DNA of 22,408 nt from a virus (IMGVR_UViG_3300042467_001008:1-22408); one strand, 5' to 3'. Shown: positions 3,917 to 15,225, counted from the first letter of the stretch. The notes: a model not told the origin generated them from the letters alone. Numbers and translations are program-made.

Positions 3917-4537
3917 CTACTCTTGCACCACTGGCGCGCGTTTCGGATATGGTAACGCTTTTTTGGCAATAATTCCAGCCATTTCATCATCGAGCGGCAT
4001 AAGATACTTGTGCTTGCCGATTGATTTTTGCATTTGAATATTTTTGCATTTTTTTTTCAAGACATCAATTTTGTTAGTCCCAAATAGTCCCGCAATTGTT
4101 CTGGGATGTGTTTTTTTTCCATCAATTAAAAATGATGTTATGTCAATGGCAGTCATCCCGACATAAACCCAATTCGTCGCTTGATAGATACCGCCATGAT
4201 GATTTTGGTCACAATCAGCATAACTGACAATCAAGCGAAGACCTGGGCAAGTTTTTTTGACCATCTTAAGTGATATTGCCATGATCCTGCTCACTGGTGC
4301 CACGTGTTTCGTGAGTGCTACACGTACCAGCTCGCACACTTGGTGCATTTTTAGACTGTACGGTCTTGCGATATTTCGGTTTGCTCCTTGCGAAAAAATG
4401 ACAGCACCAATGAATTTTTCATTTTCCCACACGCCAATTTTTACGCTCTTGCCCGCTGGCAAGCTCTTGCTGTAGTGCCACTTTTCGCAAGCAAAACGCG
4501 CCGCTTCGGCTGAGCAAAAATCAAGGCGTAAAGTCAT
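3917..4537 (-). CDS. Mom-family DNA adenine modification enzyme (GNAT-like)
   Basis: This 206-residue protein resembles phage Mu Mom, an acyltransferase-fold enzyme that converts adenines in phage DNA to a carbamoylmethylated form and so blocks host restriction. Visible landmarks are WHYSKSLPAGK at 20-30 (the His-Tyr pair expected at the active site), IGVWENEKFIGAVIFSQGA at 34-52, VCELVRVAL near 67-75, IVSYADCDQNHHGGIYQATN at 103-122 with S105 and D108, and a lysine-rich C-terminus. The gene overlaps the ParB-domain gene by 17 bases with no clear ribosome binding site of its own, so coupled translation is likely. It is visibly richer in A and T than the terminase genes and has a run of nine A residues (coding KKK near residue 161). 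The family call rests on recognised motifs, not a search. Confidence 0.8.
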   Translation of the reverse strand: MTLRLDFCSAEAARFACEKWHYSKSLPAGKSVKIGVWENEKFIGAVIFSQGANRNIARPYSLKMHQVCELVRVALTKHVAPVSRIMAISLKMVKKTCPGLRLIVSYADCDQNHHGGIYQATNWVYVGMTAIDITSFLIDGKKTHPRTIAGLFGTNKIDVLKKKCKNIQMQKSIGKHKYLMPLDDEMAGIIAKKALPYPKRAPVVQE

Positions 4538-5012
4538 GATTGCACTTCGGGCAAGTTACCATCTTCTTTTCGTCTAGTTTGCCAATTGACGAATCGTCTG
4601 GCTGAAAATCCGGCACAAACTCCTCTCCGCTGATTGCAAGCCACTCATTCTCCGCGAACCCGGTCAAACTCAAGTCCAGCCCTGCCGCCTGCACGTCCTC
4701 CAGAACGCCCCTCAACAAGTCCAAATCCCACTCACCGCTAATCTTGTTCAGCGCGACATTCAGCGCCTTCTCCTCGCCCTCATCAAGATTGACGCCAACC
4801 ACCGGCACGGACTCCAACCCCAGCTCCTTGGCTGCCTTGATGCGCTGATGCCCGCCAACAAGTACGCCAGTTCGGTCATTGACGATGACTGGATCCACAA
4901 AACCAAACCGCTCAATGCTTTGTTTTAGCGACTTAAGCGCCTGGTCACTTATCTTGCGTGGATTGTACTTGGCTGTCTTGATGCCTTTTATCGGCCTGAT
5001 GTCAACTTGCAT
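4521..5012 (-). CDS. ParB-like nuclease-domain protein with C-terminal zinc ribbon
   Basis: About residues 1-95 form a ParB/sulfiredoxin-like domain: KTAKYNPRKIS, then FGFVDPVIVN, and the hallmark GGHQRIKAAKELGLESVPVV. The segment LNVALNKISGEWD followed by LSLTGF is the form usually fused to, or beside, phage DNA methyltransferases. The last residues carry CPKCNHDF, half of a zinc ribbon. The start at 5012 is preferred because GGAGG sits seven bases upstream; an in-frame ATG at 5033 overlaps the stop of the preceding gene and would add seven residues. No methyltransferase is present; the partner gene is instead the Mom-like enzyme, which overlaps its 3' end. A role in targeting or assisting modification is inferred from that pairing. 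Nuclease activity is not shown. Confidence 0.8.
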   Translation of the reverse strand: MQVDIRPIKGIKTAKYNPRKISDQALKSLKQSIERFGFVDPVIVNDRTGVLVGGHQRIKAAKELGLESVPVVGVNLDEGEEKALNVALNKISGEWDLDLLRGVLEDVQAAGLDLSLTGFAENEWLAISGEEFVPDFQPDDSSIGKLDEKKMVTCPKCNHDFTP

Positions 5013-5029
5013 CACTTTACCTCCACTAC

Positions 5030-5344
5030 TCATGACTTAGGAATTTTAAATGGCTCCCAAGAAGCCTGTTTTTTGCTTGGTTCTGGCAGTTTTTCATCAC
5101 GCTCTTTTTTTACCAAATGCGCATAATACGACACTTCTTTCGCTGCCTTGCGCAACAACGGGTGAATCAAATCCATTGACGAAAGCACGTCCCAAATGCC
5201 CGGCTTTATCCGCTCTTCGTGCGAGTAAATTAGCGCACGATACATCGGATGAATCCATGTATCCTCTCTCAGCTTCAACAAAACCTCGTAGGCGTTGAAA
5301 AACAAATCAACCGCCCGCTTAAATTCTTCTTCGTAATCCTGCAT
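5030..5344 (-). CDS. Hypothetical protein, 104 aa
   Basis: No family recognised. The protein is predicted to be mostly helical and highly charged, begins MQDYEEEFKRAVDLFFNAYE, and ends with a lysine/proline-rich tail (LPEPSKKQASWEPFKIPKS). There is no membrane segment and no cysteine. The ATG at 5344 shares one base with the stop codon of the preceding 222-residue gene (TGATG), with GGAGG seven bases upstream inside that gene. Its own stop overlaps the alternative ATG of the ParB-domain gene at 5033. The close packing of the 222-residue, 104-residue, ParB and Mom genes suggests one translation unit and possibly a shared role. Confidence 0.7.
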   Translation of the reverse strand: MQDYEEEFKRAVDLFFNAYEVLLKLREDTWIHPMYRALIYSHEERIKPGIWDVLSSMDLIHPLLRKAAKEVSYYAHLVKKERDEKLPEPSKKQASWEPFKIPKS

Positions 5345-6012
5345 CACACCACCTCCACAAACGGTTGCTGCATCACACCAGTAACTGTGATGTCGCTAAA
5401 ATTGTAGTTGCGCTTGATCAGCGAATCGCTGATAACAAGCGTCACGTCTGGCTCTTCACCTGTAAAGTTTCCATCGGCGTCAAAGCCAAACTGCTTGCTA
5501 CCGTGATAAATGTACGCGACTGCCGTTCCGCTGTCCGAGCAGTCACACAACATCTCTGTACGCATGTGATGGACAGCGATCGTCAGCGAATCGAATGTCC
5601 TGTTCATTCTTTTTACGTCACCTGTTCCACTCAGCATCGCGCCAAAGCTGCGTGTGAAAATGTGGTAGACGCTGTAGTCATGTAAATCTTTATCCGCATT
5701 TTCAAGCCGCATCGCAGCATCCGAAACGGCACGCACCAGTTTGCGGCCGTCTGGATGCAATTCCGTTTCGCACGCCAGCATGTGCCAGTCAGTCCAATGG
5801 CAGACCGCCTGGTCGGCTTCTTTGCTTTCGACAATAATATGAGCCCGCTGCTGGCTAACGTTCAGCCTGTTACCAGCCGCCATCCAGTCTCGCAAGTCAA
5901 ACCACGCTTGCGCAATCTCATCTTCCGCGTCCTGCGCGGCCTGTCTCAATTCATAAGCTAGCGCATCCTTCGCTTCCTGCTCGTCGTGTTTTGATTCATC
6001 AGATTTTTTCAT
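5344..6012 (-). CDS. Hypothetical protein, 222 aa
   Basis: I do not recognise a family. The start is placed at ATG 6012 because it sits just behind the leader GAGGAGAACACG; the frame is open further upstream but has no ribosome binding site there. The N-terminus is strongly charged (MKKSDESKHDEQEAKDALAY) and probably a helix. The central part is rich in His, Trp and Cys (VCHWTDWHMLACE near residue 70; MLCDCSD near 155), which could bind metal or a nucleotide, but no known motif is evident. The C-terminal third (TLVISDSLIKRNYNFSDITV) looks beta-rich. It is the first gene of a tightly packed run leading to the ParB and Mom genes. Confidence 0.75.
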   Translation of the reverse strand: MKKSDESKHDEQEAKDALAYELRQAAQDAEDEIAQAWFDLRDWMAAGNRLNVSQQRAHIIVESKEADQAVCHWTDWHMLACETELHPDGRKLVRAVSDAAMRLENADKDLHDYSVYHIFTRSFGAMLSGTGDVKRMNRTFDSLTIAVHHMRTEMLCDCSDSGTAVAYIYHGSKQFGFDADGNFTGEEPDVTLVISDSLIKRNYNFSDITVTGVMQQPFVEVV

Positions 6013-6052
6013 CGTGTTCTCCTCAGCCAATTCTAGTACGCCACAACCACCG
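6010..6052. repeat. Imperfect direct repeat, copy 1 (gene end plus leader)
   Basis: This stretch covers the 3' end of the 36-residue gene, the short spacer and the leader/start of the 222-residue gene. It matches 6141-6185 over about 40 bases, differing by a few substitutions and small indels. Shared parts include CATCGTGTTCTCCTCA and TCTAGTA (plus strand). Confidence 0.75.
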
Positions 6053-6143
6053 AAATCACGTCCATCCAAGCATCGTGCCACTCTTTCTCCTCGCGTGGTG
6101 ACACCTCATACTCGACCCGGTAAGCGTCCATCCAGTCATCCAT
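6033..6143 (-). CDS. Small hypothetical protein, 36 aa
   Basis: A 36-residue ORF starting at ATG 6143 behind GAGGAGAACACG. The frame is open upstream but the leader clearly marks this start. The protein is strikingly acidic and tryptophan-rich (MDDWMDAYRVEYEVS, KEWHDAWMDV) and ends in VVVAY, exactly like the next gene upstream (6163-6399). It lies between two near-identical 40-base repeats, so gene end and leader were probably duplicated together. No function is assigned; small acidic early phage proteins sometimes act as inhibitors of host proteins, but nothing here shows that directly. Confidence 0.65.
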   Translation of the reverse strand: MDDWMDAYRVEYEVSPREEKEWHDAWMDVISVVVAY

Positions 6144-6185
6144 CGTGTTCTCCTCATCCAATCTAGTATGCCACCACAACCGAAT
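6141..6185. repeat. Imperfect direct repeat, copy 2 (gene end plus leader)
   Basis: Second copy of the 40-base module at 6010-6052. It carries the leader/start of the 36-residue gene and the 3' end of the 78-residue gene. The distance between copies, 131 bases, equals one small-gene cassette. Confidence 0.75.
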
Positions 6186-7287: not shown

Positions 7288-7323
7288 AATGATATAACAA
7301 CTTAGCACAATTGTCAACAACTT
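7288..7323 (-). promoter_or_regulatory. Strong promoter with three phased operator-like repeats
   Basis: The minus strand has TTGACA (7312-7317), a 17-base spacer and TATCAT (7289-7294). The plus strand carries ACAACTT at 7297, ACAATTG at 7307 and ACAACTT at 7317, exactly one helical turn apart, covering the spacer and the -35. The 36-base region is 27/36 identical to the promoter at 14032-14067. It lies between ThyX and the 51-residue gene and should start the second early transcript. Confidence 0.8.
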
Positions 7324-7344
7324 TATTATTATTTGCACGAAGAA

Positions 7345-8028
7345 TTATCCGCCTGGTCGTACACGCTCCCTCCACGCCGCCACGCTCACTGGCGCGATGC
7401 CATCTGCGATCTGAAGCAAAGCCTGAGCGTAAACTCGAATCTCGTGCTGCGCGTGCGGGTGATCACGCAGCTCGATGAACCGCAGCAAATTGTGGAGGTC
7501 CATCTGCCAGAAACATTGTGTGTACAGATTCTGCGGCAAGACCATCCGCGCCTGTTCGCGGCAGACGCCCATCTCAAGCAGCTCCAGGTACGTGTTGTAT
7601 GCCCGGTGGCTAATCCAACGCATCTCACTGGCAGCCTTGCGCGATACCTCTTCAGTCAAAATTCCATCGCCGACCTGTTTATTGCCCGTACCCTGCCCTC
7701 GCATTTGGTCCGGACCGGGTAGGTAAAAGTCATTCGTCATCGTCGTGTACCGGGCAGATTGAGCGTTCAGACGCGCTGTCCGATGCCGCGCAAGCTGGGC
7801 GAACACGAACAGCGGCAGTTTGATGTGGAACACCAGCACCACCTGCTCAAACGGTGATGTGTGCTGATTGCGCATCAAGTAGCGGATGAGGCGGGCATCC
7901 TCTTCCGGCGTCTTGGTGCCGGCATCGTATGAGACGCGGGCTGCACGCACCACGCTCGCGTCGTCCCCCATTGAATCGACCAGGCGGACAAACCCGTGGT
8001 CAAGCACGTCGATAACATCTGTGCTCAT
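7345..8028 (-). CDS. thyX: FAD-dependent thymidylate synthase
   Basis: A 227-residue ThyX that makes dTMP from dUMP using FAD, NADPH and methylenetetrahydrofolate. Residues 56-62 are HTSPFEQ, and the ThyX signature RHRx7S is present at 81-91 (RHRTARLNAQS). The C-terminal LHNLLRFIELRDHPHAQHEIR matches the usual substrate-binding end. Within the signature the common Ser and Glu (RHRxxSxNExS) are Arg86 and Ala89, so the usual Glu is missing although Asn88 and Ser91 are kept. The start at 8028 overlaps the stop of the 60-residue gene by four bases (ATGA) and has GAGGA upstream. It is the last gene before the second early promoter and probably supplies dTMP during phage replication, with MazG nearby. 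Confidence 0.95.
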   Translation of the reverse strand: MSTDVIDVLDHGFVRLVDSMGDDASVVRAARVSYDAGTKTPEEDARLIRYLMRNQHTSPFEQVVLVFHIKLPLFVFAQLARHRTARLNAQSARYTTMTNDFYLPGPDQMRGQGTGNKQVGDGILTEEVSRKAASEMRWISHRAYNTYLELLEMGVCREQARMVLPQNLYTQCFWQMDLHNLLRFIELRDHPHAQHEIRVYAQALLQIADGIAPVSVAAWRERVRPGG

Positions 8029-8207
8029 GGCGTCCTCACATAATGCGCATAGTCCTCGGCGATCTCGCGTATGGCATCCAGCCGGTGTGCCATCTGATAG
8101 ACCAGCTCACTGCCGTATCCTTCGGACTTTGCGGCTAGCTCGTCTAGCGCCTCGCGGCACGCCGTCAGCGCTGCGAATAAAAATTCAGATGATGCGGTTT
8201 GTTTCAT
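8025..8207 (-). CDS. Small hypothetical protein, 60 aa
   Basis: A short helical protein starting at ATG 8207 behind AAGGAAAAAACC. The frame is open upstream, but that part lies within the MazG gene in another frame and has no start site. The sequence (TACREALDELAAKSEGYGSE, ending AEDYAHYVRTP) suggests two amphipathic helices. No family is recognised. It starts 10 bases after the MazG stop and shares ATGA with ThyX, so it is probably cotranslated with both nucleotide-metabolism genes. Confidence 0.65.
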   Translation of the reverse strand: MKQTASSEFLFAALTACREALDELAAKSEGYGSELVYQMAHRLDAIREIAEDYAHYVRTP

Positions 8208-8217
8208 GGTTTTTTCC

Positions 8218-8685
8218 TTAGATTTGCTTCGCCCAGTGGGTCGCATTGCCGATGCTGTCACGCAGCTGGTGCAGCGTATTCCGGTCTCGCCCCGACCAGT
8301 CAAGGCGCTCCACCTCGGCCAGTGCGTCGGCCAGTAGGTCGCGCAAGACCGTGGTCGGACGACTATCACTAGAATGATAAACCGCACCACCATTAAAACC
8401 ATCAGGGTAACGCTCGCGAAGCTTGCGGATATTGTTTGCGGCGATGCCGTCGAGATTCAAATCATAGCGGCTGGCTATATCTGCGACGTACCAGAGTACG
8501 TCACCGAGCTCCTCACTGATGCGCGTCGGGCTCGGTGTCTTTCCGTGCCCCACATATTTTTTTATCAACTCGACGACCTCACCGGTCTCACCAGCGAGCC
8601 CGCAAGCGGATATTAGCAGCTCTTTATCGTCGCCATTAGGCGATGCTGTTCTCTTTGCGTCGTCTTGATACTCGGTCAATGTCAT
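8218..8685 (-). CDS. MazG-like nucleoside triphosphate pyrophosphohydrolase
   Basis: A 155-residue protein; residues 1-95 form an all-alpha MazG-type domain. The metal-binding pattern is clear: AGETGEVVE at 31-39 (E33, E36, E39) and EELGD at 58-62 (E59, D62), followed by LWYVADIASRYDLNLDGIAA and the usual RYPDGF near 92-97. Such enzymes hydrolyse NTPs or dNTPs to monophosphates; phage forms may clean up unusual nucleotides or lower (p)ppGpp. A C-terminal helical extension (residues 100-155) is not part of the minimal domain. ATG 8685 overlaps the previous stop (ATGA) after AAGAAAGGC and nine A residues; the frame is open further upstream but without a site. Confidence 0.88.
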   Translation of the reverse strand: MTLTEYQDDAKRTASPNGDDKELLISACGLAGETGEVVELIKKYVGHGKTPSPTRISEELGDVLWYVADIASRYDLNLDGIAANNIRKLRERYPDGFNGGAVYHSSDSRPTTVLRDLLADALAEVERLDWSGRDRNTLHQLRDSIGNATHWAKQI

Positions 8686-8966
8686 TTTTTTTTGCCTTTC
8701 TTTTTTGTCGCCCAGGTCACGTGACACTCCATGTCGTCGTGGACAATTGTTGCCGCGTACTCGATCAGCCGCATCGATTTGTCATCGCGCAGTAGCTCGC
8801 GCGCATCCGATTCCTCCAGAATAATCTGTAGTAGCAGCTCCTCCTCGTGTACCGTCACACACAGACACACCCTGTCAATCCAGATCGCGAGCGCTTCATC
8901 CTCAGCTGCCACCGCGCTGAGAAACCAATCGCTGATATCTATTTCGTCTCGGTCATCGGCATCCAT
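8682..8966 (-). CDS. Acidic hypothetical protein, 94 aa
   Basis: Start assigned to ATG 8966 behind GGAGGG. An open frame extends upstream to 9236 but overlaps the zinc-finger gene 8939-9205 completely, and that part is basic and low-quality, so it is not taken as coding. The protein is strongly acidic (MDADDRDEIDISDWFLSAVA, then LLLQIILEESDARELLRDD) and ends in a lysine-rich tail GKKK. A hydrophobic stretch (AIWIDRVCLCVTV) is too polar for a sure membrane helix. No family is recognised. It overlaps the previous gene by 28 bases and MazG by four, so it belongs to the same translation unit. Confidence 0.6.
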   Translation of the reverse strand: MDADDRDEIDISDWFLSAVAAEDEALAIWIDRVCLCVTVHEEELLLQIILEESDARELLRDDKSMRLIEYAATIVHDDMECHVTWATKKKGKKK

Positions 8967-9205
8967 AGCGCGCTTGCCCTCCCCGGCTGACAGAGAAGCG
9001 TGCGCCAGATACCGCACAGGTATGCTGAACCGTCTACGACACGTCCTTCGCCCGGTGTCGAGGATAGCACGCCGTGCCGGCAATTGTGACAGTCGCGCGA
9101 TGCCGCCCAAGCCTCCCAGCACCACGCGCACAGCTTCATTTCTGCGCTCCTGCCACGCATCACGTATCCACGCCCACATTGTGCGCATCTCCTCTCGGTA
9201 CTCAC
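8939..9205 (-). CDS. Zinc-finger protein, 88 aa (third of three paralogue-like genes)
   Basis: GTG start at 9205 overlaps the TGA of the previous gene (GTGA) and follows GAGGAGG. Cysteines fall in two four-Cys clusters: C7-C10 with C26-C29, and C39-C42 with C64-C72. Each could hold one zinc ion. The C-terminal cluster (CxxC, a gap, an aromatic residue before Cys, then 7 residues to Cys) has the same layout as the C-termini of the two genes before it. The protein could bind nucleic acid or a protein partner. No named family is recognised. ATG codons at about residues 16 and 23 would cut off the first cluster, which supports GTG as start. Confidence 0.7.
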   Translation of the reverse strand: MSTERRCAQCGRGYVMRGRSAEMKLCAWCWEAWAASRDCHNCRHGVLSSTPGEGRVVDGSAYLCGIWRTLLCQPGRASALWMPMTETK

Positions 9206-9471
9206 GTGACCACCTCCTCAAGTAGCCTTGCGTCATATCTCGGACGGCAAACGGCAGCGTTCAGCTCGCACACATAGCCAAGCCAAGCCTGATCATTTTT
9301 AGTGCCCCACTTGCAGCGACCACATGGTACAGGCTTGACGGTGATGGATACTGATGTGTCGCGCGGAGCATTTTTTTTAGCCCGATTGCACTTTGTACTG
9401 CAATACGCGCGATTGCCTGGTGTGATAAAATACCGCCTACATAGTTTGCACTGCCTTCTATCGCTGCTCAT
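9202..9471 (-). CDS. Zinc-finger protein, 89 aa (second of three paralogue-like genes)
   Basis: Start chosen at ATG 9471, inside the end of the 282-residue gene (overlap 14 bases); an upstream start at 9510 would add residues with no conserved pattern. The N-terminal cluster is C8-C11 with C24-C28 (CKLC...YCSTKC), like the first cluster of the 282-residue protein (CKRC...FCSHRC), a treble-clef-like pattern. The C-terminal cluster is C50-C53 with C68 and C75 (CGRC...YVC...VC). Basic residues between clusters suit nucleic acid binding. The protein looks like the first and last modules of its larger neighbour with the middle removed. Function unknown. Confidence 0.7.
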   Translation of the reverse strand: MSSDRRQCKLCRRYFITPGNRAYCSTKCNRAKKNAPRDTSVSITVKPVPCGRCKWGTKNDQAWLGYVCELNAAVCRPRYDARLLEEVVT

Positions 9472-10306
9472 GCAATATTGCCCCCGCCCACGGCTTGCAA
9501 ACCGTAGCACTCCTCAAGCACTCCCACCCTATATCCGACGCAGGGTTTGGCTTTCCAGCCCTGCAGCTCGCGCACGGATAGCTAGGATATGATGGCGGTA
9601 TAATTTTCTCGGCCTTTGCCTTGGCGCGAGGAAGATTTTGCTGGCGCGGACGCTCCTGACAATAGGTACACCGAGTATGGCCAGGTCGCCTGATGACTGC
9701 CTCGCACAGATCGCACTTGACGACTGGCTTCTTTTCAGCACCCTGTTCACAGGAGATGCATTTTGTGCGGCCACCAAAGCTTCGCGTCCGCAATCCGCAT
9801 TTATCGCAATTGATCGTCTTGGCGGTCGAGTAAAGGCATTGGTGGCAAATCCATCGTTTACTCTTGAGCGATTTCGAGTCTGCGCGAGCAAGCATCTCGG
9901 CTCCACACTCGCACCTTATCGTATAACACTTTATGCCTTTTTTTTCATAATACGCGGTCTTGCACGCCAGACTGCACGTGTGAGCCGAATGCCCCGTGTA
10001 GTGGAATTCCGACCCGCATATCTTGCAATCCCGTAACGGTTTTGAGGCGCGTTGTGTGCGCTTGACGTATTCCCGGTAGCAATCTTGACTGCAGCAAAAT
10101 TGCCCAGGGCTCGTGACTCGCTTCAAGAATTCTTTGGCACATTGCCTGCACTCATGCGTGATCGTCTGCATCTCACCGACACGGCGCAAGTAAGACTCGA
10201 CAAGCGGTGCCTTGCATCGATGCGAACAAAAAATTTGATTTGACGTCTTTGCGATGAATTCTGAATCACAGCGCTTGCATCGCAATATTTTGGGCTCGCG
10301 CATCAT
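9458..10306 (-). CDS. Multi-zinc-cluster protein, 282 aa (first of three paralogue-like genes)
   Basis: Seven four-cysteine clusters run along the whole protein: C10-C13/C27-C31, C53-C56/C72-C76, C94-C97/C111-C115, C132-C134/C154-C157, C167-C170/C183-C186, C198-C201/C213-C216 and C245-C248/C263-C270. The first three share CxxC...CxxxC with an aromatic residue in between, like treble-clef fingers; the next three are zinc-ribbon-like. The last matches the C-termini of the two following genes. Between them are basic, lysine/arginine-rich segments. ATG 10306 overlaps the DUF1064 stop (ATGA). So many zinc sites in a small phage protein suggest a nucleic-acid or scaffold role. No named family is recognised. 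The position between a nuclease and nucleotide enzymes suggests DNA metabolism or regulation. Confidence 0.8.
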   Translation of the reverse strand: MMREPKILRCKRCDSEFIAKTSNQIFCSHRCKAPLVESYLRRVGEMQTITHECRQCAKEFLKRVTSPGQFCCSQDCYREYVKRTQRASKPLRDCKICGSEFHYTGHSAHTCSLACKTAYYEKKGIKCYTIRCECGAEMLARADSKSLKSKRWICHQCLYSTAKTINCDKCGLRTRSFGGRTKCISCEQGAEKKPVVKCDLCEAVIRRPGHTRCTYCQERPRQQNLPRAKAKAEKIIPPSYPSYPCASCRAGKPNPASDIGWECLRSATVCKPWAGAILHEQR

Positions 10307-10614
10307 GACTTCACGACCTCGATCACGATCGGCGCGTAAAGCTCCTCCACCTGCTTGCGCTTCATCTTGGACATCGGAGTGTCGACGCCTTTAACGTCAA
10401 CCCACCTAATGGATCCACCAGACTCAAAAATGCAAAAGTCACAAACGTACTTCACTCCGCCAGGCAAATGAAACGGCACCTGCCGCAAGTACTGCACCAC
10501 TTCACCAGCCGCCTTGGCCCGGTCAAGCTGCTCCGCGAAGGCCAGCTCAGCCTTACTGTCGAATCGATGTCCGTCCCGCTTTTGCGGTGACGCATTGTAT
10601 TTGTGTCTGATCAT
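10303..10614 (-). CDS. DUF1064 family protein, PD-(D/E)xK nuclease-like
   Basis: A 103-residue protein with the DUF1064 pattern: KYNASPQKRDGHRFDSKAEL at the start (E23), VCDFCIFE with D59, and IRWVDVKG with D73 and K75. Together E, D and DxK make a PD-(D/E)xK-type active site. Family members are phage proteins found in replication modules and are thought to act as endonucleases or junction resolvases. The length is normal. The start is ATG 10614, joined directly to the shared leader (GAGGAGAAC-ATG), an unusually short spacing. It follows the helicase-loader-like gene by 46 bases and overlaps the large zinc-cluster gene. Confidence 0.85.
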   Translation of the reverse strand: MIRHKYNASPQKRDGHRFDSKAELAFAEQLDRAKAAGEVVQYLRQVPFHLPGGVKYVCDFCIFESGGSIRWVDVKGVDTPMSKMKRKQVEELYAPIVIEVVKS

Positions 10615-10660
10615 GTTCTCCTCAAATGTTGAAAAGTGAATAACTCGATAAGCGCCTGTT

Positions 10661-11227
10661 TTAGGCCTTCATTTTATCCGCAACGTCTATAATCACCTTG
10701 GACGCATACAACAAGCCTTGTTGGGCATCCTGTTGCGGTAGAACGCGCATTGATTCGCACCTCAATCGTTGCGTTTCAGCAAAGTCACGCAATTCCGTGA
10801 CGGCGCGCTGGAAAGTCTTGGCCATAAAGTCCAACTGCTTTTGATCGTGAGCCTCAAGGATCGCCCTTGCGCCACCAATCCTGTCGAGACCAACACGTTG
10901 CTCAGTCGTCAATTGCGGTTGCGTGGTCGTCCGGGTCTCGCTGTCCCACCTGCCGTGCGGACCATACTCGCAAACAAGGCGCACCGTGTCGGCCCACAAT
11001 TGCGCCGTGTCCTCCACCGGAGCGGCCCACCTGCGTATTTGTGCCAGCGTTGGCCATTGGTCGCTTGTTCGAGCCATATGGCGCACCGCAGCCAAAACAG
11101 CTTCGCCGGGTAGGTCTTGTAGTTCTCGGTACCACATCTCGACAACCGCTTTGTCCTGCATTCGGATTCGGCCTGGGTGATAGGCCTCCAACAAGGCCAT
11201 CAATGCCACGTGTTCTTCGCGTGTCAA
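10661..11227 (-). CDS. Replicative helicase loader-like protein (G39P-like N-terminus)
   Basis: 188 residues. The N-terminal 65 residues (LLEAYHPGRIRMQDKAVVEM, then WYRELQDLPGEAVLAAVRHM and WPTLAQIRRWAAP) match the helical pattern of the phage SPP1 G39P family, which binds the replicative helicase and brings it to the initiator at the origin. The rest is helical and variable, as in the family. The start is TTG at 11227, after AAGGAGAACAAAA; TTG overlaps the TGA of the initiator gene (TTGA). That order, initiator then loader, is standard. With no helicase or polymerase gene in the window, it may load the host helicase. Confidence 0.7.
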   Translation of the reverse strand: MTREEHVALMALLEAYHPGRIRMQDKAVVEMWYRELQDLPGEAVLAAVRHMARTSDQWPTLAQIRRWAAPVEDTAQLWADTVRLVCEYGPHGRWDSETRTTTQPQLTTEQRVGLDRIGGARAILEAHDQKQLDFMAKTFQRAVTELRDFAETQRLRCESMRVLPQQDAQQGLLYASKVIIDVADKMKA

Positions 11228-12144
11228 TTTTGTTCTCCTTCTGCTAGCCAGCTGGCCAGCGATGCCCTCACCACGTCGCCGTGATGCATCTTGCGCTCTG
11301 GCGGTTTGAATTGTATCGGGTCGTCAAGCCAACCGACCTGGTTCAACCAGGTGGATGCGTGTCGCCATTCTGGTACCCAAGCGCCAGCTCGCCTGGCAGC
11401 CTCGCGCTGAATCACCTGCTGCTCGACTGCCTCAATCACGTCCTTGGCCATGTCGTCGCTCTCGACGATTTTATCCCACATTTGCTTTGCTTTTTGCTTG
11501 CTGCCTTTACCGGGGTGCGCAAGCCAAAACTCGGAAAAACGTAAATCGAGTATTTCAGCGTGCGGACGCGCGCGTTTACTCTCTCGTTGTTTTGGTTTTG
11601 GTACTGGATTTGGAGACGGAATTGGATTTGGTATTGGATATGGATTTGGTATTGGTATTGGTATTGGTATTGGTATTGGGGCATTGCCCTCCGCATCAGT
11701 CCGCAATGCGGTGTGCATGCGCTCCGCATGCGAGTCGCATAATTCCGCATTGCGCTCCGCATCATCAGTATCATTTGACTCAACGCCAGAACGCTTGTCC
11801 CACCTTGACTTTGCGGCTTTTTTTGCTGCCTCACTCCGTTGCGCGCTGTGGTAGCACCATGGTTGATGCTCTGCCCAGTCGTGGATAGCAAACCCACCAT
11901 CGATCTCGTCAACCAAACGCAAATCAACCAAGATTTGCACGATATTTTCTTGACCTTCCCAATCAGCTGCAAGCATCAAGTCATCTTCGTCAAGTCCAGA
12001 CAGATCACCATCTGGCTTGTGCTTTGCAACCCACGACCACAAACAAAGCAACGCAATAACGCCTTCAGCACCGAGTCTGCGCTTGAGTTTTTTTATCTTA
12101 GTGTGACTAAAAACATCAGCGTTTATGCGAAGGTCATTCGGCAT
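11224..12144 (-). CDS. Phage replication initiator (replisome organizer-like), contains candidate origin
   Basis: 306 residues in three parts. Residues 1-100 (MPNDLRINADVFSHTKIKKL, GVIALLCLWSWVAKHKPDGD) resemble the winged-helix N-terminus of phage replisome organizers. Residues 120-190 are low-complexity: first repeats around DAERNAE, HAERMHT and DAEGNA, then a Pro-Ile/Asn run (from about 155 to 185). Residues 195-280 (FSEFWLAHPGKGSKQKAKQMW, ending WRHASTWLNQVGWLDD) match the C-terminal region seen in many phage initiators. The peptide repeats are coded by DNA repeats that look like an origin (11689-11762). ATG 12144 follows the stop of the HTH gene with no gap (TAAATG). Its role would be to bind the origin and recruit the loader coded next. 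Confidence 0.8.
   Translation of the reverse strand: MPNDLRINADVFSHTKIKKLKRRLGAEGVIALLCLWSWVAKHKPDGDLSGLDEDDLMLAADWEGQENIVQILVDLRLVDEIDGGFAIHDWAEHQPWCYHSAQRSEAAKKAAKSRWDKRSGVESNDTDDAERNAELCDSHAERMHTALRTDAEGNAPIPIPIPIPIPNPYPIPNPIPSPNPVPKPKQRESKRARPHAEILDLRFSEFWLAHPGKGSKQKAKQMWDKIVESDDMAKDVIEAVEQQVIQREAARRAGAWVPEWRHASTWLNQVGWLDDPIQFKPPERKMHHGDVVRASLASWLAEGEQN
11588..11680. repeat. Degenerate hexanucleotide tandem repeat (GGTATT)
   Basis: Five perfect GGTATT units occupy 11648-11677, and variants (GGATTT, GGTACT, GGATAT) extend back to about 11588. They code for the Pro-Ile/Asn run of the initiator. The block is A/T-rich with strong strand asymmetry and directly adjoins the iterons at 11689. 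Copy number is likely to vary by strand slippage. It may also ease DNA unwinding. Confidence 0.85.
11689..11762. other. Candidate replication origin: iteron cluster inside the initiator gene
   Basis: The plus strand shows CTCCGCAT at 11689, 11722 and 11755, TTCCGCAT at 11743 and TCCGCAAT at 11700. In the same stretch are dyads: GCATGCG-ctc-CGCATGC (11715-11731, perfect), CCGCA-a-TGCGG (11701-11711) and CGCA-t-TGCG (11746-11754). Repeated initiator-binding sites inside the initiator gene beside an A/T-rich repeat follow the lambda O / ori pattern. Origin function is an inference. Confidence 0.55.
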
Positions 12145-12318
12145 TTATTGGCGCTCCGTCAATGACTTTACGTCGTTCTCATTGATTCGCCACACCCTTG
12201 AATTCAGCTTAGCAGCCGGCAAGATTCCATTTTTGACCCAATTGCGAACTGTCTGCGTGCTAACCTGCAGCTTTTTCGCTACTTGGCTCACAGTCAAAAA
12301 TTGTTGATATTCTGTCAT
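12145..12318 (-). CDS. Small helix-turn-helix DNA-binding protein (excisionase-like fold)
   Basis: A 57-residue ORF from ATG 12318, behind GGAGGGCGAT, to TAA, with the next gene's ATG following directly. The sequence LTVSQVAKKLQVSTQTVRNW, then VKNGILPAAKLNSRVWRINEND, is the HTH_17/MerR-type winged helix used by excisionases and small regulators: a first helix, recognition helix STQTVRNWV, and a beta wing containing RVWRI. In an integrase-containing phage this would be called Xis, but no integrase is visible, so an autoregulator, replication helper or repressor of the early promoters is just as likely. It lies first after the promoter at 12333-12361 and in front of the initiator. Confidence 0.85.
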   Translation of the reverse strand: MTEYQQFLTVSQVAKKLQVSTQTVRNWVKNGILPAAKLNSRVWRINENDVKSLTERQ

Positions 12319-12332
12319 ATCGCCCTCCTATT

Positions 12333-12361
12333 TGTATAGTCTCGCAAAACAATGGTATCAA
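12333..12361 (-). promoter_or_regulatory. Probable promoter for the HTH-initiator-loader genes
   Basis: Minus strand: TTGATA (12356-12361), a 17-base spacer, and TATACA (12333-12338), 15 bases before the start codon of the HTH gene. Both hexamers are near consensus. It lacks the 10-bp-phased ACAANTT repeats of the other two promoters, so it would be controlled differently. Confidence 0.5.
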
Positions 12362-12400
12362 AGCGGAAACAAAATGCAAAGACTTTATCTCCGCTTTTTT
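12360..12400. terminator. Weak hairpin after SSB, possible terminator
   Basis: AAAGCGGA (12360-12367) and TCCGCTTT (12390-12397) are perfect inverted arms with a 22-base loop. A T6 run follows on the plus strand; on the minus strand the tail is only CTTTGAT. It lies just after the SSB stop. The long loop makes it a weak candidate, and one arm touches the promoter. Confidence 0.3.
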
Positions 12401-12407
12401 CGGCTCT

Positions 12408-12755
12408 TTAAAACGGCATCTCGTCAGAATCGCTTGACGGCGCATCAATTCCTGGCGCAACGCGTTTCGTTCCACCGTCGATTTCGATCAATCGTGCGTA
12501 CATTTGAAGCTTGCCTTCAGTTGAGACGATGCGACGAATCTCGACGATGCAGCTTACCTTATCTCCTTTTCTGAGGTTCGCTAGCACGTATTGTGCCTTC
12601 GTGCCCATTGCATCGACTGTGACCCACTGAGTCAAATTCCCTTGTGATTTCGTGTATCCGTACTTGACAGCGCAAGAAAATTGCACGCCTTCATACTCCC
12701 CAGTCTTTGCCTCCGGGTCGCGTCCGACATTTCCTGTTATAGTTGCGATAAACAT
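12408..12755 (-). CDS. ssb: Single-stranded DNA-binding protein
   Basis: A 115-residue OB-fold SSB: MFIATITGNVGRDPEAK at the start, then FSCAVKYGYTK...TQWVTVDAMG and LANLRKGDKVSCIVEIR, as in bacterial and phage SSBs, with the acidic tail SDSDEMPF that normally contacts host replication and repair proteins. It is short, with a reduced linker, as is common in phages. ATG 12755 shares one base with the TAA of the annealing-protein gene, whose last codons also form the ribosome binding site AAGGAGAACAAATA. The pairing of SSB with an annealing protein suggests a recombination-linked replication mode. Confidence 0.95.
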   Translation of the reverse strand: MFIATITGNVGRDPEAKTGEYEGVQFSCAVKYGYTKSQGNLTQWVTVDAMGTKAQYVLANLRKGDKVSCIVEIRRIVSTEGKLQMYARLIEIDGGTKRVAPGIDAPSSDSDEMPF

Positions 12756-13369
12756 TATTTGTTCTCCTTTTTGGCTTTGCGGTCTGTGATCAGCGCGAGT
12801 TCGATCTTGGCAACATCATTTAGGGTCAGGTCGGCCGTGGCACCTGGCATACCGTGCGTCGCCAAGAATACTTTGAGCCACTCGGCATCATAGCCGGCTT
12901 CGCGGATTTTGCTCCAAAGTGTGAGCGTGTCCTCTTTGGTGGCTTTTTGCGCGCCAAGGTCTTTTGACTTTTCAGCCTTGACCTGCTTTGCATGGACTGG
13001 AGGCACTGGCTGTGGGGCATCAGCTAGCTTGCTGTCTGCAGATTCGTAAAAGTCCGCCACCGCGAACGCCGTGCCGAACCCAGCAACCGCAAGCGCACGG
13101 CCCACCGCCACCGTCTCGGCCTTTTCGACCCAGCCAGGCGGGAAGCCTTTTTGCGTCTCGCTGCCGTAGGCTGTGCCGAGAAGCTTGCCCTCACCGTCGA
13201 TCACGGTGGCGCGGTAAAGTGCGAAGCCGGCTTGCAGATCAAGCTGCACCAATTCAGTCGTGATCGCACCGCCAGGGTGCTGGTCGCGGAAAAGCAGCAC
13301 GCGCCCACTAACCTTGAGATACTGCTGCCCCTGCAGGGACATGAAGTGCGGTTTTAAGTCGACGCTCAT
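12755..13369 (-). CDS. Rad52-like single-strand annealing protein (probable)
   Basis: 204 residues from ATG 13369 behind GGAGG; a TTG at 13381 has no site. The core reads YLKVSGRVLLFRDQHPGGAI near residues 17-36, then YRATVIDGEGKLLGTAYGSE, and VEKAETVAVGRALAVAGFGT near 81-100. The last block (KAET-AVGRALA-GFGT) is characteristic of phage proteins related to Rad52-type annealers, which bind single strands and pair complementary DNA. A linker rich in Ala, Lys and Pro follows, then a helical C-terminal part (TLWSKIREAGYDAEWLKVFL). It directly precedes ssb, which supports a role in recombination. The family call is by motif; no nuclease partner is visible except the DUF1064 protein. Confidence 0.65.
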   Translation of the reverse strand: MSVDLKPHFMSLQGQQYLKVSGRVLLFRDQHPGGAITTELVQLDLQAGFALYRATVIDGEGKLLGTAYGSETQKGFPPGWVEKAETVAVGRALAVAGFGTAFAVADFYESADSKLADAPQPVPPVHAKQVKAEKSKDLGAQKATKEDTLTLWSKIREAGYDAEWLKVFLATHGMPGATADLTLNDVAKIELALITDRKAKKENK

Positions 13370-13370
13370 T

Positions 13371-13505
13371 TTAGCCTCCAATCAAGCGCTTGACGATGCG
13401 CAACAAGTTGATTCGTTTTGAGGCGCGCTCACGAGCCGCCTGGAGCCTGCGATCGAGTTCTTTTTGGCGGCGTTCGGCGTGGATGTCGTGCAACAAAGTG
13501 TTCAT
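13371..13505 (-). CDS. Small basic protein, 44 aa
   Basis: Start ATG 13505 behind AGGAGACTACTAGA. The product is almost one basic helix (HAERRQKELDRRLQAARERA, then SKRINLLRIVKRLIGG), with Arg/Lys spaced as in a coiled coil or nucleic-acid-binding helix. It ends one base before the ATG of the annealing-protein gene's leader region, and its last codons (ATT GGA GGC TAA) supply that gene's ribosome binding site. Longer in-frame readings upstream overlap the 33-residue gene and lack a start site. No family is recognised. Confidence 0.6.
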   Translation of the reverse strand: MNTLLHDIHAERRQKELDRRLQAARERASKRINLLRIVKRLIGG

Positions 13506-13506
13506 T

Positions 13507-13608
13507 CTAGTAGTCTCCTTCAAAGACGTACGGGTCAGTACCGTATGCATCGTCTCGCTGCTGGTCATAATCCTCGGCAGCGACATCTTGTCTAACAATT
13601 TCAGTCAC
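13507..13608 (-). CDS. Very small acidic protein, 33 aa
   Basis: A GTG codon at 13608 directly follows the full leader GAGGAGAACACA, and the frame runs 33 codons to TAG at 13507. The product is very acidic (VTEIVRQDVAAEDYDQQRDD, then AYGTDPYVFEGDY). Its last codons overlap the ribosome binding site of the next gene, GGAGACTACTAG. The exact leader, the clean stop one base before the next ATG and the spacing all support real translation. No homology is recognised; a small acidic protein could imitate DNA, but that is a guess. Confidence 0.6.
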   Translation of the reverse strand: MTEIVRQDVAAEDYDQQRDDAYGTDPYVFEGDY

Positions 13609-13639
13609 TGTGTTCTCCTCTTCGTGGTGGCGGTGCGTC
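13609..13639. repeat. 31-base perfect direct repeat, copy 1 (gene leader)
   Basis: Identical over 31 bases to 13987-14017. On the minus strand it holds the untranslated leader, including GAGGAGAACACA, of the 33-residue gene. The copies are 378 bases apart, enclosing the 102-residue gene. Confidence 0.9.
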
Positions 13640-13644
13640 AGTGT

Positions 13645-13662
13645 GCGGGTATCACTACCCGC
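13645..13662. other. Perfect hairpin/palindrome GCGGGTA-N4-TACCCGC
   Basis: Seven-base perfect arms with a four-base centre, 14 bases before the 102-residue gene's stop in plus coordinates (that is, just downstream of that gene). No U-run follows in either direction, so it is not a standard terminator. It could be an RNA processing or stability hairpin, or a dimeric-protein binding site. Confidence 0.5.
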
Positions 13663-13675
13663 GGTGTGTGTGTGC

Positions 13676-13984
13676 TCAGACTAAATCCGCAACCCTGAAA
13701 ATGACATCTGACAGACTGAAATCGTTGCTGCTGAATTTCTGGGCGATGGTGTAGCCATTTTCATCGCGGACCGATACTTGATTTGGGGTTATGCCTGCCT
13801 GATGTAACTTTGCTGCAGCTTGCGCTTCAAAACAGCCAGCTCTGATAAATTCTGCGATAAGATATGGTCGCAAGCCTGTGTCATACCAAGCTTGGACCGT
13901 GCTATCAATTTGCGATTCTGGCAACCATTCTCCAAGAGTTTCGACGATCCAAAGAATTGCCTGGCGACGATCTGCTAAGTACAT
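13676..13984 (-). CDS. Hypothetical protein, 102 aa, first gene of the early transcript
   Basis: Start ATG 13984 behind GAGGAGAACACACA; an in-frame start at 14044 lies inside the promoter and is rejected. The protein begins MYLADRRQAILWIVETLGEW, continues with helical segments (YDTGLRPYLIAEFIRAGCFE, AQAAAKLHQAGITPNQVSVR) and ends DVIFRVADLV. The part around LIAEFIRAGCFEAQAAAKLHQAGITPNQV reads like small paired helices of a DNA- or protein-binding kind, but no family is recognised. As the first gene after the strong promoter at 14033-14061 it should be made very early. Confidence 0.75.
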   Translation of the reverse strand: MYLADRRQAILWIVETLGEWLPESQIDSTVQAWYDTGLRPYLIAEFIRAGCFEAQAAAKLHQAGITPNQVSVRDENGYTIAQKFSSNDFSLSDVIFRVADLV

Positions 13985-13986
13985 TG

Positions 13987-14017
13987 TGTGTTCTCCTCTT
14001 CGTGGTGGCGGTGCGTC
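13987..14017. repeat. 31-base perfect direct repeat, copy 2 (gene leader)
   Basis: Second copy of the 31-base leader repeat found at 13609-13639; here it is the leader of the 102-residue gene and lies about 10 bases after the expected transcription start. The two copies could recombine and delete the gene between them. Confidence 0.9.
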
Positions 14018-14031
14018 CGCCTTGATGTATT

Positions 14032-14067
14032 CAATATACCACAAATTATCACAAGTGTAAACAACTT
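14032..14067 (-). promoter_or_regulatory. Strong early promoter with three phased operator-like repeats
   Basis: Minus strand: TTTACA (14056-14061), a 17-base spacer and TATATT (14033-14038). The plus strand has ACAAATT at 14041, ACAAGTG at 14051 and ACAACTT at 14061, exactly 10 bases apart. The region is 27/36 identical to the promoter at 7288-7323. It stands between the late-gene terminator and the first early gene. Confidence 0.8.
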
Positions 14068-14169: not shown

Positions 14170-14481
14170 CTACCGCTCCTGGTCTCCTCTTGGCAAGACC
14201 GGCTTGTCGGATTGTATGAGGCTGTATCCGCCAGCCGCTGCCAACGCGGCCGTAAACGCCTCACCGAAAAGCGTCAAGTCTCCCGATAGGTCAAGTGTCG
14301 CCAGTTGGCCCGTGTAGGCTGCTATGCCAAAGCGCACCGCGATGGATGCTCCAAGCAAGACGGCTGTTATACCTGCCTTGCTTTTTGCCTGGTACGGAAT
14401 ACCAGGTGCTGCCTCGATCCCCTTGGCTACTGTGCTAACTGCCGGTGCGAGCACCAGCGGCAAAATTGTGTTCAAGTCCAT
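14170..14481 (-). CDS. Putative holin
   Basis: A 103-residue hydrophobic protein with two to three likely membrane helices: ILPLVLAPAVSTVAKGI (about 6-22), GITAVLLGASIAVRFGIAAY (about 37-56) and FTAALAAAGGYSLI (about 76-89). The tail is short and charged (PVLPRGDQER). This layout and its position directly after the endolysin gene fit a holin that permeabilises the inner membrane and releases the enzyme. ATG 14481 overlaps the endolysin stop by 10 bases and follows AAGGAGAATACGGAG. No named family is certain. The coiled-coil membrane protein upstream of the endolysin may work with it or be the true holin. Confidence 0.6.
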   Translation of the reverse strand: MDLNTILPLVLAPAVSTVAKGIEAAPGIPYQAKSKAGITAVLLGASIAVRFGIAAYTGQLATLDLSGDLTLFGEAFTAALAAAGGYSLIQSDKPVLPRGDQER

Positions 14482-14990
14482 CTCCGTATTCTCCTTCGGC
14501 CCTGAGCGACTTCGTTGGCGTACCAGCGTGCCTTGCGTGTAATCTCTTCAGTATAGCGCCCGCAGTCCCATCGATCAGGATAGTACCCGTCACAGCGAGC
14601 GTACGCGGCGTGATCGGTGATGCGCGCGATTTCGATTGTGCCATCATCAGGGATGCGCGATCCCTTGATTACCTTGTGACGCCGGCAGGTATGCGTCGCG
14701 TCAAATGCAATTGCGTATTGCACCGATAGGTCAGCAATCAAAGCCGCGGTCTCTTCAATTTGCCGCTGGGTCGGTAGGGTGCGTGCGTTGGCCATCGCGC
14801 ACATCGCGATCCCGATGTTGCCCGTGTTCCGCCCCCAAACGTGACTCCCCTTGAACGCAAGCCCCAGGGTCTGAACCGTGCGGCCATCGCCAGTTACGCA
14901 GAAGTGGTAACTGTCGTGGGTCTGCGTGTAGCTGCCTGCCGTCCAGTGCAGCGTGATAAGCGTAGGTGTCCCGAGAGATTCATTTTGCAT
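14472..14990 (-). CDS. Endolysin: N-acetylmuramoyl-L-alanine amidase (Amidase_2 type)
   Basis: 172 residues from ATG 14990 behind GGAGGCCCAC; a longer frame to 15050 has no site and overlaps the preceding gene. LITLHWTAGSY at 11-21 gives the first zinc ligand (H15), YHFCVTGDGRTVQ at 28-40 is the usual second strand, GNIGIAMCAMANAR at 57-70 is the core of the family, and HTCRRHKVIKGSRIPDDG at 100-117 gives the second histidine and the acidic loop. It cuts the bond between N-acetylmuramic acid and L-alanine in peptidoglycan at lysis. The basic C-terminus (AQGRRRIRRW) may bind the wall. There is no signal peptide, so release depends on a holin. It overlaps its neighbours on both sides. Confidence 0.88.
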   Translation of the reverse strand: MQNESLGTPTLITLHWTAGSYTQTHDSYHFCVTGDGRTVQTLGLAFKGSHVWGRNTGNIGIAMCAMANARTLPTQRQIEETAALIADLSVQYAIAFDATHTCRRHKVIKGSRIPDDGTIEIARITDHAAYARCDGYYPDRWDCGRYTEEITRKARWYANEVAQGRRRIRRWT

Positions 14991-15225
14991 GTGGGCCTCC
15001 CCACCATATCGCCCAAGCGGACACAAGTGCAGCCACCGCACCGCTGGCAAGAGTCCGCCCCCAAGTCGTCAATGCTTCCAGACGGCTCACGCGACCCTCC
15101 AGGTCGTCCAGGCGGCGCACTAGACCGGTCTTGCCGTTCAGGTCGCCAACAATCGCGGTGTGGATTGCCTCCACACGGCGCTCAATGTCGTCCAGTTTTT
15201 TTGCAAGCTCTTCGTTCGGCGCCAT
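14980..15225 (-). CDS. Coiled-coil protein with one C-terminal membrane helix (XhlA-like)
   Basis: 81 residues: a long heptad-patterned region (LAKKLDDIERRVEAIHTAIV and LVRRLDDLEGRVSRLEAL), followed by one hydrophobic helix (TLASGAVAALVSAWAIWW, about 58-76) and a short tail. This matches the layout of XhlA-type hemolysin/lysis proteins and of phage Rz-like spanin helpers placed beside endolysins. It probably assists lysis or modulates the holin. ATG 15225 lies 9 bases after the previous stop and has no clear ribosome binding site, so translation may depend on reinitiation. It overlaps the endolysin start by 11 bases. Confidence 0.65.
   Translation of the reverse strand: MAPNEELAKKLDDIERRVEAIHTAIVGDLNGKTGLVRRLDDLEGRVSRLEALTTWGRTLASGAVAALVSAWAIWWGGPHAK

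Follow-up and report, generated by a model that had tools for sequence, protein, structure and literature searches.

A phased ladder of TTGT repeats shared by two distant phage promoters, and the small winged-helix protein that may read it

Two promoters that lie kilobases apart in a 22.4-kb phage fragment from IMG/VR (IMGVR_UViG_3300042467_001008:1-22408; all 22,408 nucleotides were analysed and are called the window here) carry the same ladder of three TTGT units, set at an exact 10-bp pitch from the -35 through the spacer. An earlier note on this DNA had described the ladders as plus-strand heptamers and had proposed two operons under one cooperative regulator, possibly a 57-residue helix-turn-helix (HTH) protein encoded in the window. 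All six heptamers are in place (starting at 7297, 7307 and 7317, and at 14041, 14051 and 14061), and both the 27/36 identity of the two 36-bp promoters and the 10-bp pitch hold at the level of single bases; the direction has to be corrected, as both promoters, P1 and P2, read leftwards on the minus strand, where nearly all genes of the window lie (Table 1). A phased direct-repeat operator shared by P1 and P2, and with it the two-operon arrangement, is well supported. Our preferred reading of its function, to which we give a probability of roughly 0.58, is that a filament-forming repressor of the Xis/BldC type, freed from integrase duty, would control the early and late operons.

The two sites have a common minus-strand layout, AAGTTGTTKACAMTTGTGMTAAKTTGT followed by two bases (N2) and the -10, in which the decamer unit is approximately NTTGTNNWAA and the -35 overlaps unit 1 as TTGTTKACA. 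Hexamer scores of 10 and 11 of 12 place P1 and P2 with the best sigma70-type promoter matches of the region. Identity between the 36-mers is complete at the TTGT positions (12/12), and amounts to 8/11 at the hexamer positions outside TTGT and 7/13 at the remainder. This similarity is sharply limited to promoter plus array: the flanks match at chance level (13/60 and 16/59), which rules out a long duplication of the promoter cassette. Exact TTGT-N6-TTGT-N6-TTGT is found in the window only at P1 and P2, and three triplets occur at up to one mismatch, against 0.14 ± 0.45 in window shuffles. With the hexamers held fixed and at the local base composition, a TTGT triplet is expected with a probability of about 4e-5 per promoter, or 0.008 if any tetramer at a pitch of 9-11 bp is admitted. 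In the window alone, other pairs of tetramer and pitch also occur as two triplets, so that two TTGT triplets are not unique; the weight of the array comes from its identical register on both promoters and from other phages, not from the window count alone.

Arrays are unchanged in the close relatives L003 (100% identical), L005 (about 92% DNA identity) and L004, where the -10 of P2 is TATTAT, one base different, and the array is intact. P1 is 36/36 identical in L005 and sits inside a 289-bp identical run, with neighbouring genes 84-97% identical, and since this run spans terminator, promoter and leader it is not operator-specific evidence. Outside the close kin, about 0.4 Mb of terminase and ThyX relatives (terminase relatives 45-59% identical) held no TTGT triplets at up to one mismatch, and a search of GenBank phages with the window gave no match. 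Beyond the window, where the note had called for a search of the complete genome, additional contigs of this phage (G001 and G028-G030, about 9 kb past the window as inferred from overlaps) contain no third array; other phages do carry arrays.

Four related phage lineages of 72-107 kb carry 4-11 triplets of TTGT at 10-bp pitch per genome, mostly at promoters. One of these phages (G009) was found by scanning viral contigs for an array plus a promoter, and others (G025 and G026/G027) by a separate scan that used the HTH protein of phages of the G009/G019 type, not the DNA motif; a scan of viral contigs for four units yielded the informative G009 and G019 matches along with many simple-sequence repeats. 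By blastp, G009 and G019 give no match to the window phage. In G009 (106 kb, 55% G+C), where arrays of 3-5 units lie over promoters, TTGT at 10 bp is the top triplet (11 copies) among 256 tetramers at 9 pitches, with 0 in the reversed-pattern control; the related G019 has 8 triplets, G025 has 4, and G026/G027 have 6 and 7 (controls 0), reversed-pattern controls being 0-1 across all these lineages.

Orthologous promoters of G009 and G019 retain their arrays despite sequence turnover between the TTGT units, and in all four lineages the promoter of the phage's own HTH gene carries an array, some units being degenerate. Moreover, the best -35 falls at the same phase relative to TTGT (modulo 10 = 3) in 15/24 array promoters, the two of the window included, an agreement that partly follows from the letters common to TTGT and TTGACA. 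The units of these lineages are NTTGTNNAAA-like, without an ACAA half, and their decamer consensus is approximately NTTGTNNANA. The large phages resemble the window in their TTGT arrays at 10-bp pitch, in a mostly identical -35 register and in the array before their own small HTH gene, but differ from it in their much larger genomes, their many array promoters and their HTH proteins, which are weakly HTH_17-like. What the earlier note saw in the DNA is confirmed, and it extends beyond the window.

Beside these arrays, a nonamer (TTCGACAAG / CTTGTCGAA) recurs near the G009 array promoters (L074-L079); it might be a further regulatory element or else belong to the array unit itself. A 33-kb contig (L119, in G020) in which no HTH_17 gene was detected has, at 4038-3990 on its minus strand, a run of five TTGT units in phase, TTGTTTTAAATTGTTGGGCTTTGTGCAAAATTGTGCTATTTTGT. 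A 30-kb contig (L134/L135, in G017) has several arrays of TTGTAATRTA decamers at 10-bp pitch in different places between 21.1 and 29.8 kb, with HTH_17 not found; they could represent a different direct-repeat system, or be repeats of some other kind.

Among known binders of direct repeats, BldC assembles head-to-tail on 9-bp repeats, or with one molecule per helical turn (PMC5859096), and RdfS with about one molecule per 10 bp (PMC11963761). Apl recognises repeats 10-11 bp apart, binds only with three adjacent operators and represses pR and pL (PMC7498355), so that three in-phase units are what a protein of this kind would require. Apl of coliphage 186 at pR-pL, and the P2-type Cox, are like the window case in direct repeats one turn apart, cooperative three-site binding and repression of phage promoters (PMC7498355), but they serve as excisionases in temperate phages and work at a single switch region and attP, whereas the window repeats its array at promoters kilobases apart and no tyrosine integrase was found in the sampled sequence. 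BldC of Streptomyces is a small HTH_17/MerR-like winged HTH (wHTH) protein that regulates several promoters (PMC5859096) and whose fold lies within about 1 Å of the window HTH model; it differs in being a bacterial developmental regulator with AATTXXXX(C) 9-bp repeats instead of TTGT decamers, a specificity that the window units do not show, and its site can lie away from the -35. The Xis of Pukovnik (4j2n), which according to work cited in PMC7498355 binds head-to-tail to tandem sites spaced by one turn, is the closest solved protein to the window HTH by sequence and fold, but is an excisionase within an integrase system. The earlier note had held phased direct-repeat triples to be unlike the usual paired dyads of temperate phages; they are indeed not dyads, yet phage precedents exist in 186 Apl, P2 Cox and Xis (PMC7498355).

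The 57-residue protein matches Pfam HTH_17 (PF12728) over residues 7-57 at 54.6 bits, against a cut-off of 27. A PDB sequence search places 4j2n closest (E 4.6e-5), and the AlphaFold2 model of the protein (predicted local distance difference test 79.8) aligns in Foldseek with 4j2n and BldC 6ama at about 1.0 Å over 48-49 residues, and with 6amk also at about 1 Å. Its closest named phage homologue by E-value (43.5% identity, E 1e-6) is encoded by Oceanospirillum phage vB_OsaM_PD0307, a 44-kb genome whose sole TTGT triplet at 10-bp pitch (11/12) lies directly upstream of that HTH gene, which is followed by a primase gene; we put the odds of this placement by chance, as our own estimate and for one positive among eight loci inspected, at roughly 1 in 50 to 1 in 100. 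PD0307 differs from the window in having one array per genome and weak promoter hexamers. With its Xis/BldC fold, and with arrays before homologous or similar HTH genes elsewhere, the 57-residue protein, which the earlier note had named as one possibility, is the leading candidate for the regulator, and on this circumstantial evidence we rather favour that it binds the array.

No tyrosine integrase (PF00589) was found in the window, in the relatives' contigs or in the other array phages tested, although contigs may be incomplete; this argues against a pure excisionase role for the HTH protein, and gives no support to a temperate life. The sites do resemble those of a recombination directionality factor in being direct repeats about one turn apart, but neither a tyrosine integrase nor an attachment-site location was found with them: both arrays overlap promoters before genes, with no integrase context. 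As no tyrosine integrase was found, we do not claim strict excisionase-family membership for the window HTH.

Several findings weigh against the HTH protein as the binder and against the wider reading built on it. Its gene, 1.7 kb behind P1, is not the first one there, and identity is at least about 92% in those relatives of the window in which the arrays persist, which makes their conservation weak evidence. Intergenic stretches near HTH/Xis-type genes of seven other phage HTH relatives (Gordonia, mycobacteriophage MA5, gut contigs) contain no TTGT array, an absence that is expected if specificity differs, yet weakens the link, and some contigs without a detected HTH_17 have single arrays. 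Furthermore, the HTH proteins of the large phages score 25.3 and 18.8 bits against HTH_17, below the curated cut-off, the model of the large-phage HTH has no significant PDB match, and hhalign detects no significant direct homology between these proteins and the window HTH.

In the mechanism that we propose, P1 and P2 would both be strong minus-strand promoters of the host sigma70 type, with a common operator of three TTGT decamers at one-turn pitch in a fixed -35 register. The regulator would be a small winged-HTH protein that is produced early in infection, most probably the 57-residue HTH_17 protein of the P1 operon. It would bind with one protomer per decamer, head-to-tail on a single face of the DNA, in the manner of Xis, Cox, Apl and BldC, and would cover the -35 and spacer and bend the DNA. 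Binding would be switch-like, because about three adjacent sites would be required, and the accumulated protein would repress P1, its own operon, by negative feedback, as well as P2, the entry to the late operon. We infer the binding by the 57-residue protein, the formation of a filament and its repressive effect. Because a phage family without BLAST-detectable kinship uses such ladders at many promoters, it is probably a small filament-forming regulator encoded by the phage itself that lands on the ladder, and its most likely mode of action is that of Xis/Apl/BldC-type filaments serving as a multi-promoter transcription switch. More tentatively, and at slightly less than even odds, filament-forming wHTH proteins of the excisionase/BldC type may have been recruited repeatedly by integrase-less phages as global regulators, with TTGT ladders that vary in rungs and position giving graded, cooperative control of a regulon that includes the regulator's own gene.

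The operator could be real and have another binder, such as a regulator of the host or a protein that the phage encodes outside the sampled contigs, which we consider unlikely. Unrelated phages share TTGT at 10 bp without significant HTH homology, as would be expected had they encountered the same host factor; the sampled part of the window phage, about 31 kb, is not the whole; and the conserved small proteins of G009 include one of the HU type. HU is not known for such sequence specificity, however, and arrays stand before HTH genes in two independent groups. Nor is a host regulon visible by pattern: a strict scan of bacterial genomes gave 0 matches, and in a relaxed scan of 84,980 bacterial and archaeal species 23 scattered, mostly Firmicutes single promoters match array plus hexamers. 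We read these 23 singletons as strong-promoter background, and weak short-query promoter matches in Aeromonas, Enterococcus and other phages as ordinary promoters. It is distinctly improbable that there is no operator at all, but only two strong sigma70 promoters that are alike by common descent or base composition, with chance TTGT in T-rich spacers. Such a reading can draw on TTGTTGACA-like promoters with an extra TTGT, which occur singly in many bacteria, and on the composition of the 36-mers, which are 46% T and owe part of their identity to the -35 and -10; it has to contend with the low probability per promoter once the hexamers are given, with the lack of triplets among terminase and ThyX relatives outside the close kin, and with the many arrays of an unrelated phage family.

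A filament on P1 and P2 might also activate or time the promoters, or shape the DNA, instead of repressing, which seems rather improbable to us. RdfS activates transcription (PMC11963761), BldC can bind at some distance from the -35 (PMC5859096), and at some promoters of the large phages (for example G009 83277 and G019 29703) most units are upstream of the -35, but every unit of P1 and P2 overlaps the -35 and spacer, so that protein bound there should keep RNA polymerase out, and neither of these near-consensus promoters needs an activator. We hold it very improbable that an ordinary symmetric dimer binds here to a dyad, either TTGT-N2-ACAA or ACAATTGT, as repressors of temperate phages do at their inverted-repeat operators. 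P2 does contain a perfect TTGTTGACAA and a perfect ACAATTGT, but P1 breaks both (TTGTTTACAC, ACACTTGT) while the three direct units are exact in both promoters, and the missing ACAA half in the large phages points the same way; we therefore rejected a palindromic operator.

What is known before this work is the binding mode, from Xis, Cox, Apl and BldC; its use for a multi-promoter regulon in phages in which no tyrosine integrase was found appears undescribed, and the literature searched (open-licence papers) held no description of such a phage regulon. Little is known of early and late control in most uncultured phages without an RNA polymerase of their own. If the filament-forming repressor is real, a short searchable signature, TTGT at 10-bp intervals across a promoter, would mark a class of phage regulon tied to a tiny regulator, and the Xis/Cox/BldC binding mode would serve general multi-promoter control, beyond excision or the lysogeny switch.

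In order of transcription, the window comprises tail genes, the amidase endolysin, a likely holin, a bidirectional terminator, P1, the replication cluster, P2, small open reading frames (ORFs), endonuclease-like, ParB-like and Mom genes, terminase and portal. Judging by gene arrangement, the cluster behind P1 would be co-transcribed, and the cluster behind P2 is presumably co-transcribed as well.

Table 1. Promoters, operator units and associated features of the window
Feature	Coordinates	Strand	Details
P1, promoter and operator array before the early/replication operon	14032..14067	-	-35 TTTACA 14061-14056, 17-bp spacer, -10 TATATT 14038-14033, TG before -10
P1 operator unit 1	14061..14064	-	TTGT, start 14064; overlaps first base of -35
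P1 operator unit 2	14051..14054	-	TTGT, start 14054; in spacer
P1 operator unit 3	14041..14044	-	TTGT, start 14044; in spacer, immediately before -10
P1 possible fourth unit	14031..14034	-	Degenerate, TTGA, beyond -10; one-mismatch match; same in L003/L005
P2, promoter and operator array between thyX and packaging/late genes	7288..7323	-	-35 TTGACA 7317-7312, 17-bp spacer, -10 TATCAT 7294-7289
P2 operator unit 1	7317..7320	-	TTGT, start 7320
P2 operator unit 2	7307..7310	-	TTGT, start 7310
P2 operator unit 3	7297..7300	-	TTGT, start 7300
57-residue wHTH protein, proposed regulator	12145..12318	-	HTH_17; Xis/BldC fold; in operon behind P1
First gene behind P1, 102 aa	13676..13984	-	ORF, GAGGAGAACACACAATG start; no family found
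Early/replication cluster behind P1	7345..14031	-	SSB, HTH, replication initiator, helicase loader, DUF1064, MazG, ThyX
First gene behind P2, 52 aa	7096..7254	-	ORF, GAGGAGAACAAAAATG start; no family found
Cluster behind P2	3..7254	-	Endonuclease-like, ParB-like, Mom, terminase, portal
Bidirectional intrinsic terminator between lysis genes and P1	14092..14124	.	AAAAAGCCTCG...CGAGGCTTTTT; direct sequence reading
Amidase endolysin	14472-15050		
Likely holin	14170-14481		Assigned by context alone

Behind P1, a perfect 31-bp minus-strand repeat, GACGCACCGCCACCACGAAGAGGAGAACACA, at 13609-13639 and 13987-14017 provides two consecutive genes with their leader and ribosome-binding site, and the second gene of the operon apparently uses a GTG start. 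Another duplicated leader/start region (6010-6054 versus 6141-6184, 89% identical) precedes two neighbouring genes of the P2 cluster. In the same cluster, at 3917-5033 and upstream of the terminase, a Mom-family DNA modification protein (PF25680, 150 bits) adjoins the ParB-like protein.

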